Origin: Pseudomonadota bacterium | GTDB lineage: Bacteria > Pseudomonadota > Gammaproteobacteria > Burkholderiales > Rhodocyclaceae | Length of the DNA stretch: 64,000 nucleotides | Reading direction: 5' to 3' | NCBI GenBank assembly: GCA_008501585.1 | Contig: QQUN01000005.1 | Location: 1-64,000 of the forward strand | Part shown: in pieces, positions 56,659 through 57,739 of the stretch | Position numbering within the stretch: the first letter of the stretch is position 1 | Layout of the letters: every line of letters starts with the position of its first letter | The notes under the pieces: generated by a model | What the model saw: only the letters and a program-made list of their open reading frames with translations | Told to the model about the DNA's origin: nothing | The model's database searches: none | Translations under genes and position numbers: made by a program

Positions 56659-56687
56659 GAGCGCCCGGTGCGTGGCGGTTGGCGCGC

Positions 56688-57328
56688 AGCCCGGCCGAGG
56701 GCCACAGGCCCGACGCCGGGGCCGTGTGCCCGATAGGCAATGCTGATCCCGGCGTCGCTGCGCTCGGCCGGGCTACGGTGTTTGCCTGTGCCCCGGATGG
56801 CGGTAGGGCGGACAAGCGCAGCGCATCCGCCGTGTTCATGGCTGCCCTGGTGGCGGATGCGCCTACGGCTTTGCCGGCACGGCGATGTCGTGTACGCGTA
56901 GCCCGGCCGAGGGCCGCAGGCCCGACGCCGGGGTCGTGTGCCCGATAGGCACTGTTGCTCCCGGCGTCGCTGCGCTCGGCCGGGCTACGGTGTGTGCCTG
57001 TGCCCCGGACGCGGTAGGGCGGACAAGCGCAGCGTATCCGCCGTGCCGATGGCTGCCCTGGTGGCGGATGCGCTTACGGCTTTGCCGGTACGTCGATGCC
57101 GTGTACGCGTAGCCCGGCCGAGGGCCACAGGCCCGACGCCGGGGCCATGTGCCCGATAGGCAATGTCGATCCCGGCGTCGCTGCGCTCGGCCGGGCTACG
57201 GTGTGTGCCTGTGCCGCGGACGGCGGTAGGGCGGACAAGCGCAGCGCCTCCGCCGTGCCGATTGCCGCACTGGTGGCGGATGCGCCTGCGGCTTCTTCGC
57301 CCTACGGTTTTGCCGGCACGTCGATGCC
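56688..57328. repeat. Tandem array of three ~211-bp units
   Basis: Units begin at 56688, 56900 and 57111 (periods 212 and 211) with AGCCCGGCCGAG. Each unit has two parts: a nested dyad (AGCCCGGCCGAG...CTCGGCCGGGCT, inner CGACGCCGGG...CCCGGCGTCG) and a second motif (GTAGGGCGGACAAGCGCAGCG followed by TCCGCC). Each ends with a copy of the last nine codons and stop of the adjacent minus-strand gene; the third copy is the gene's real 3' end. This accounts for nearly all of the 643 bp without a gene (56659-57301). The plus-strand ORFs in the track here are repeat translations. Confidence 0.85.
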
Positions 57329-57739
57329 ATGGGCGCCGAGCCAGTGGCGGTCGATTTCCCAGGTGACGGTCTTGATGCCAGCTTGGCGGGCCACGATGTC
57401 GCGGGCTTCAAACTGCAGGCCGGCGAGTTCCTTTTGCGCGGCGATGAAGGCCGGGTCGTTGGTGTCGAGCACGTTGATGTCGGGGTAGAGCACCTTGATG
57501 ATGCGGGTCACCGATACGTCGCGGCTGCGTGGCGTGCCCATGACGGCCTTGTCGCCCTCCACGCGCAGCACGCGGAAGGGGTAGGGATAGGCCTTGAGTT
57601 CAGCGCTGCCCTCGGCCGCAATCGTGGCGTTGAGGGCGCGGGTCTGGCCGTCGGGGCGCTGGATGAACCAGTCCGTCACCCATGCCACGACAAGGGCGAG
57701 GACGATCCAGTGCCAGGTGCGGAGTTTGAGCGCTTTCAT
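57302..57739 (-). CDS. Single-pass membrane protein of unknown function
   Basis: 145 residues with an N-terminal membrane anchor (WHWIVLALVVAWVTDWFI) and a periplasmic domain of about 115 residues: TRALNATIAAEGSAELKAYPYPFRVLRVEGDKAVMGTPRSRDVSV, then VLYPDINVLDTNDPAFIAAQKELAGLQFEARDIV. I do not recognise the family. Its last nine codons (HGIDVPAKP and stop) are duplicated twice downstream inside the repeat array. No operon partner. Confidence 0.7.
   Translation of the reverse strand: MKALKLRTWHWIVLALVVAWVTDWFIQRPDGQTRALNATIAAEGSAELKAYPYPFRVLRVEGDKAVMGTPRSRDVSVTRIIKVLYPDINVLDTNDPAFIAAQKELAGLQFEARDIVARQAGIKTVTWEIDRHWLGAHGIDVPAKP

Follow-up and report, generated by a model that had tools for sequence, protein, structure and literature searches.

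A tandem array of GTAG-type REPIN elements carrying copies of a gene's 3' end, with a tail-tagged copy of its module at another locus, in a Denitromonas-group genome

In Pseudomonas fluorescens SBW25, REPINs form tandem clusters that take in adjoining DNA and have a non-repeated stretch from one unit to the next (Bertels & Rainey 2011, PMC3116915). Nunvar et al. (2010, PMC2817692) reported four cases in which the 3' ends of rayt genes had been captured in BIMEs, and proposed a rolling-circle model for RAYT. According to Di Nocera et al. (2013, PMC3733652), GTAG REP families lie downstream of genes or between convergent genes and form clusters that are reiterated with flanking DNA of variable length, and the TAG of GTAG can serve as a stop codon. 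Both phenomena, tandem REPIN arrays with flanking DNA and captured rayt 3' ends, are in the literature. How tandem arrays form, and how REPINs and BIMEs spread, is still debated, with recombination on one side and RAYT catalysis on the other.

The window analysed here, a stretch of 64,000 nucleotides on contig C38, comes from a genome (G000) of the Denitromonas group (Zoogloeaceae). It contains a tandem array in which two GTAG-headed palindromes of the REP/REPIN type, REPIN A (GTAGGGCGG) and REPIN B (GTAGCCCGG), are both present in each unit. The best explanation, to which we assign a probability of roughly 85%, is a composite REPIN A and REPIN B tandem array between convergent genes, in which a gene tail was captured once and then amplified, and a module of which later came to lie at mutL. 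As in the BIMEs of Nunvar et al., the 3' terminus of a gene and its spacer to the REP make up the inter-REP segment of a tandem array; the genes captured there were the transposase genes themselves, whereas here they are ordinary chromosomal genes. The array differs from the SBW25 clusters in that its flanks are coding 3' ends, that single-unit and multi-unit relatives can be compared, and that one module bearing the tail also occurs elsewhere in the chromosome. The GTAG tag, the siting between convergent genes, the GTAG stop and the clusters with flanking DNA are shared with the families of Di Nocera et al.; gene-tail passengers and their move to another locus are not described in the accessible portion of that paper. 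Relative to the cited REP/REPIN papers, as far as their accessible text goes, what is new is the presence of ordinary genes' tails in several arrays, the opposite captures in one gap of sister species, and the tail-tagged module at a second locus.

The tandem repeat of about 211 bp claimed in the original prediction is real. TRF placed it at 56683-57294 (score 1038, with 92% matches and 2.9 copies at period 211); none of the seven other TRF rows of the window comes near it in strength. Self-BLAST aligned the array with itself at offsets of 212 (92% over 401 bp) and 423 (92% over 189 bp). An Rfam search of the window returned no family. On the minus strand, each unit runs from the gene tail through REPIN A, a linker of ~25 bp and REPIN B to the junction (Table 1). 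The data support the predicted inclusion of the minus-strand gene's 3' end in the tandem duplication. Three copies of the tail had been claimed; the tail readings in units 1 and 2 hold, but the "copy" in unit 3 is the native gene end, so that two tails were captured. It is scarcely credible that the array is an artefact of assembly: while the genome is a draft in 79 contigs, the units are 7-9% apart and have distinct indels, comparable arrays occur in independent assemblies of relatives, and a close copy, in unique surroundings, is found on a different contig.

Table 1. Positions in the window of the array's features and of the two convergent genes beside it.
Feature	Position	Strand	Basis or remark
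Donor gene, 145 aa	57302..57739	-	3' terminal codons copied; stop TAG within REP-A GTAG head
Native tail, HGIDVPAKP-stop	57302..57331	-	sequence
REPIN A, unit 3, full-length left arm (GTAGGGCGAAGAAGCCGCAGGCGCATCCGCC ... TCCGCCCTAC)	57226..57305	-	architecture matches REPIN A beside mutL in G001
REPIN B, unit 3 (GTAGCCCGGCCGAGCGCAGCGACGCCGGG ... GGGCTAC)	57109..57199	-	DNA hairpin -41 kcal/mol, z -7.4
Duplication junction 1, CTACGCG/TACACG	57101..57108	-	unit alignment
Captured tail, unit 2, HGIDVPAKP-stop (TAA)	57074..57103	-	4/30 nt from native
REPIN A, unit 2, 16-bp left-arm deletion	57014..57077	-	pattern search and unit alignment
REPIN B, unit 2	56898..56988	-	DNA hairpin -42.7 kcal/mol, z -7.1
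Duplication junction 2, sequence as junction 1	56890..56897	-	unit alignment
Captured tail, unit 1, HDIAVPAKP-stop (TAG)	56863..56892	-	4/30 nt from native
REPIN A, unit 1, 16-bp deletion as in unit 2	56803..56866	-	pattern search and unit alignment
REPIN B, unit 1	56686..56776	-	DNA hairpin -36.4 kcal/mol, z -4.1
Convergent small Cys-containing gene, 66 aa	56458..56658	+	its 3' end copied in independent D. iodatirespirans array

Searches of the window's genome (4.29 Mb) that allowed at most two mismatches found 21 matches to REP-A and 20 to REP-B, and the reversed patterns, used as a control, gave 0 matches. At one stem pair that had been left free in the pattern, the REP-B matches covary (C-G in 10, G-C in 8, A-T in 1 and a mismatch in 1; n=20). 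REPIN B folds as a DNA hairpin in all three units, at -36 to -43 kcal/mol with z of -4.1 to -7.4, while the hairpin of the REPIN A inverted pair is less clear (z -2.0, for unit 3 alone, folded without its GTAG head). The elements share with GTAG REPs and REPINs a short extragenic palindrome with a GTAG head, an inverted REP pair and copies dispersed in the genome, and with BIMEs regular spacing, alternating orientation and head-to-tail modules; they are present in fewer copies than the published families. They are GTAG-type REPs like those of Nunvar et al. (2010, PMC2817692) and of Di Nocera et al. (2013, PMC3733652). The original prediction treated these repeats as cargo, and the roles are in fact reversed: the GTAG repeats are REPINs, a type of mobile element, and the gene tail is the hitch-hiker.

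It had also been proposed that unit 1, furthest from the gene, is the most diverged, and that duplication proceeded successively outward from the gene. The units are nearly equally diverged as wholes (16/211 differences between units 1 and 2, 20/212 between units 1 and 3, and 18/211 between units 2 and 3), and the two copied tails are equally far from the native one, so unit 1 does not clearly stand apart. The two internal junctions have the same sequence. Units 1 and 2 also have in common a 16-bp deletion in the left arm of REP-A, an arm that unit 3 retains in full, like other REPIN A copies. Together with the equal divergence of the tails, these observations point to a single capture, after which the unit that contained the tail was amplified, and on the same grounds outward successive capture was rejected. 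Nor is outward growth supported by the near-equal divergence of the units and their conflicting informative sites (2:1:1). Aligning the units, which had been suggested as a way to infer the order of duplication, did reveal the shared deletion; it resolves the order within the array no further than that.

The donor gene has no Pfam or NCBIfam match, and is conserved in Denitromonas, being present in nine of the ten genomes of the genus searched (the window's own counted). Its stop is the TAG of the REP-A GTAG head both in the window and in D. iodatirespirans, and in G001, G004 and G006 it ends PAN* with TGA. The junction bases match the gene sequence of relatives (GCGCGCACGGC in G001 and GCGCACACGGT in D. 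iodatirespirans); the identical junctions and the relatives show that the duplication left the donor gene intact. In G001, the gap between the orthologous pair of genes holds a single REPIN B and no REPIN A. The original prediction would have been undermined by single-unit relatives with unrelated sequence at the junctions, and what the relatives have is both genes, one element or none, and related junction sequence. In D. iodatirespirans (L002/L014/L053), the orthologous gap contains REP-A remnants and an array of 204 bp x 4 of the REPIN B type (L053 4358-5163, G003:C148), in which the copied coding part is the last ~30 codons of the opposite, convergent gene. Since this tail belongs to the opposite gene, the two arrays are of independent origin, and the arrays of the sister species present before and after states of one gap. 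No dispersed copies of the D. iodatirespirans tail were found beyond its own array.

These data suggest the following sequence of events. The composite module consists of non-autonomous GTAG-headed REP elements, with REP-A at the stop codon of the 145-aa gene and its GTAG supplying the stop. One duplication, with its outer breakpoint about ten codons inside the gene, brought the REPIN B end and the gene tail together, and the duplicated unit would then have lost 16 bp and been amplified again, through unequal recombination or slippage between units or through transposase-made circles. A competing explanation for the array, which we rate a little below an even chance, is that hairpin-prone G+C-rich DNA simply underwent replication slippage or unequal crossing-over, the REPs acting only as fragile palindromes and no transposase taking part in making the array. 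The identical junctions fit one illegitimate duplication at a homology of a few bases, for which GGCGCGCAC in the G001 gene and GCTGCGCGCC at the array end are candidates, followed by homologous expansion, and the array DNA has strong hairpins. Ordinary slippage or recombination accounts for the tandem array without any transposase. However, array slippage alone does not produce a dispersed module bounded by REP-A heads, and the RAYT gene itself has flanking tandem REP arrays in three genomes.

The dispersed module came from a search with the tail pattern, which, at no more than three mismatches, matched exactly four places in nine genomes: the gene, the two array copies and a site on contig C56 of the window's genome (G000:C56:167934-167965, 0 mismatches). 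The whole module at this site (G000:C56:167798-168025; L050 3798-4025) matches the array with 94% identity along 137 bp and with 93% along 229 bp, and carries both the array-specific junction and the 16-bp deletion. It sits between two genes that, from their sequence, we take to be mutL and a TraB/GumN-like gene, with the REP head supplying the mutL stop TAG. In the orientation of mutL it extends from GTAGGGCGGACAAGCG to the next GTAGGGCGGA, a span of one module with a REP-A head at either end. In G001, a plain REPIN A lies immediately after the mutL CAG codon, and the first bases after mutL in G007, G008 and G002 contain no such REPIN. The tail is that of the C38 gene, which gives the movement a known direction, from the C38 array to C56. 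A captured gene tail is a unique tag of known birthplace and can show which way a module moved, which plain REPs cannot. Under the preferred reading, a module reaching from a REP-A head as far as the following one, and containing the tail, would later have been placed at the REP-A site beside mutL. A circle cut by RAYT, or recombination at the heads of the REPs, could have brought it there, two routes between which the sequence cannot tell.

A RAYT gene of 168 codons that ends at a GTAG stop is present in the window's genome (G000:C40:21203-21706), with 122-bp tandem REPIN B arrays on either side, and G001 and G003 likewise have a RAYT with REPIN B arrays on both sides. The C40 gene is thus cognate to REP-B, the REP that flanks it; for REP-A of the window type, no RAYT with clear flanking copies was found in G000. 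Two further REPIN B arrays of 120 bp, ~1.6 kb apart, lie on contig C25 of this genome (L047 3544-3904 and 5140-5400), and their inter-REP segment resembles that of the C40 arrays. This resemblance, the arrays on both sides of the resident RAYT, and the single-module insertion beside mutL with GTAGGGCGGA heads as its bounds are consistent with a second alternative, in which RAYT-catalysed circles and rolling-circle amplification of a basic REP module, as modelled by Nunvar et al., would have led to reinsertion in tandem and at other REPs. We hold this to be possible but somewhat doubtful, given that homologous recombination at REPs would yield the same end product, that part of the REPIN was also lost at the mutL site, and that no circle or insertion intermediate was seen. 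The C40 RAYT is a candidate mobiliser of these REPs; what was observed is a sequence outcome, and no transposition product or circle was seen. A further reading, which seems unlikely, is that in Denitromonas a RAYT moves REP modules as circles reaching from REP head to REP head, and that these regularly bring 3' ends of ordinary genes to other REP sites, in effect 3' transduction in bacteria. The first RAYT candidate, on contig C61 of G000, is not cognate, being flanked by a different repeat (GGGGTCAGGTCTTGAATT); repeats of this sequence, which is not of the GTAG type, precede a Y1 transposase gene there (L051 6002-6211). A RAYT at G003:C69 was not taken as cognate either, as its flanking REP is related but different (GTAGCCCGGATGCAGG...).

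Other arrays also hold gene ends. At G000:C43, an array of 283 bp x 1.9, with an unrepeated spacer of ~40 bp between units, includes the 30 terminal codons of a gene read as a GNAT acetyltransferase; G001 has one unit there, and no copy of this tail other than the neighbouring one was found in G000. At G003:C122, a REPIN B array of 208 bp x 3.5 is followed by a copy of ~40 terminal codons of the preceding unnamed gene (88% over 132 bp). The weakest case of the set, read by eye, is an array of 228 bp x 3.5 at L097 9459-10254 (G000:C38), which contains a GTAGCCCGG REP along with a portion of an EamA-like gene's 3' end. A 460-kb genome sample that was not chosen for REPs, window included, served as control, and held two long-period tandem arrays that were not CRISPR, tRNA or in-gene, namely the window array and L097. 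The other loci had been picked for holding REP-B and so cannot serve as an unbiased estimate of frequency. Since a gene stays whole when a tandem duplication begins within its tail, capture would need no selection where gaps are short. That selection acts on the copied tails themselves, which might serve for instance as decoy 3' ends, as alternative ends bearing a stop or as a regulatory transcript, is very improbable. Both copies keep the reading frame and a stop, but the rest of the gene is absent from them, the other arrays took unrelated genes at other lengths (10 to ~40 codons), and a promoter and terminator scan inside the window array found neither a sigma-70-like promoter nor a terminator-like site. 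The copied tails probably ride along as passengers and have no coding role. REPs are known to act at mRNA 3' ends, and by analogy the hairpins of the array may act on the mRNA 3' ends of the convergent pair.

Three further repeats were noted. A 591-bp x 2.5 tandem repeat in G008 (C1, L060 3515-4988) has REP-B-like heads, and a long CRISPR array with the repeat GTGTTCCCCACGCCCGTGGGGATGAACCG occupies ~103.8-108.2 kb of G000:C43 (L110-L111). At L067 3315-3583 (G002:C1:515314-515582), the beginning of a biotin-carboxylase-like gene (MFEKILIANRG) has been copied, along with a different palindrome, into a 118-bp x 2.3 tandem array adjoining a REPIN B, a case of 5'-end capture.
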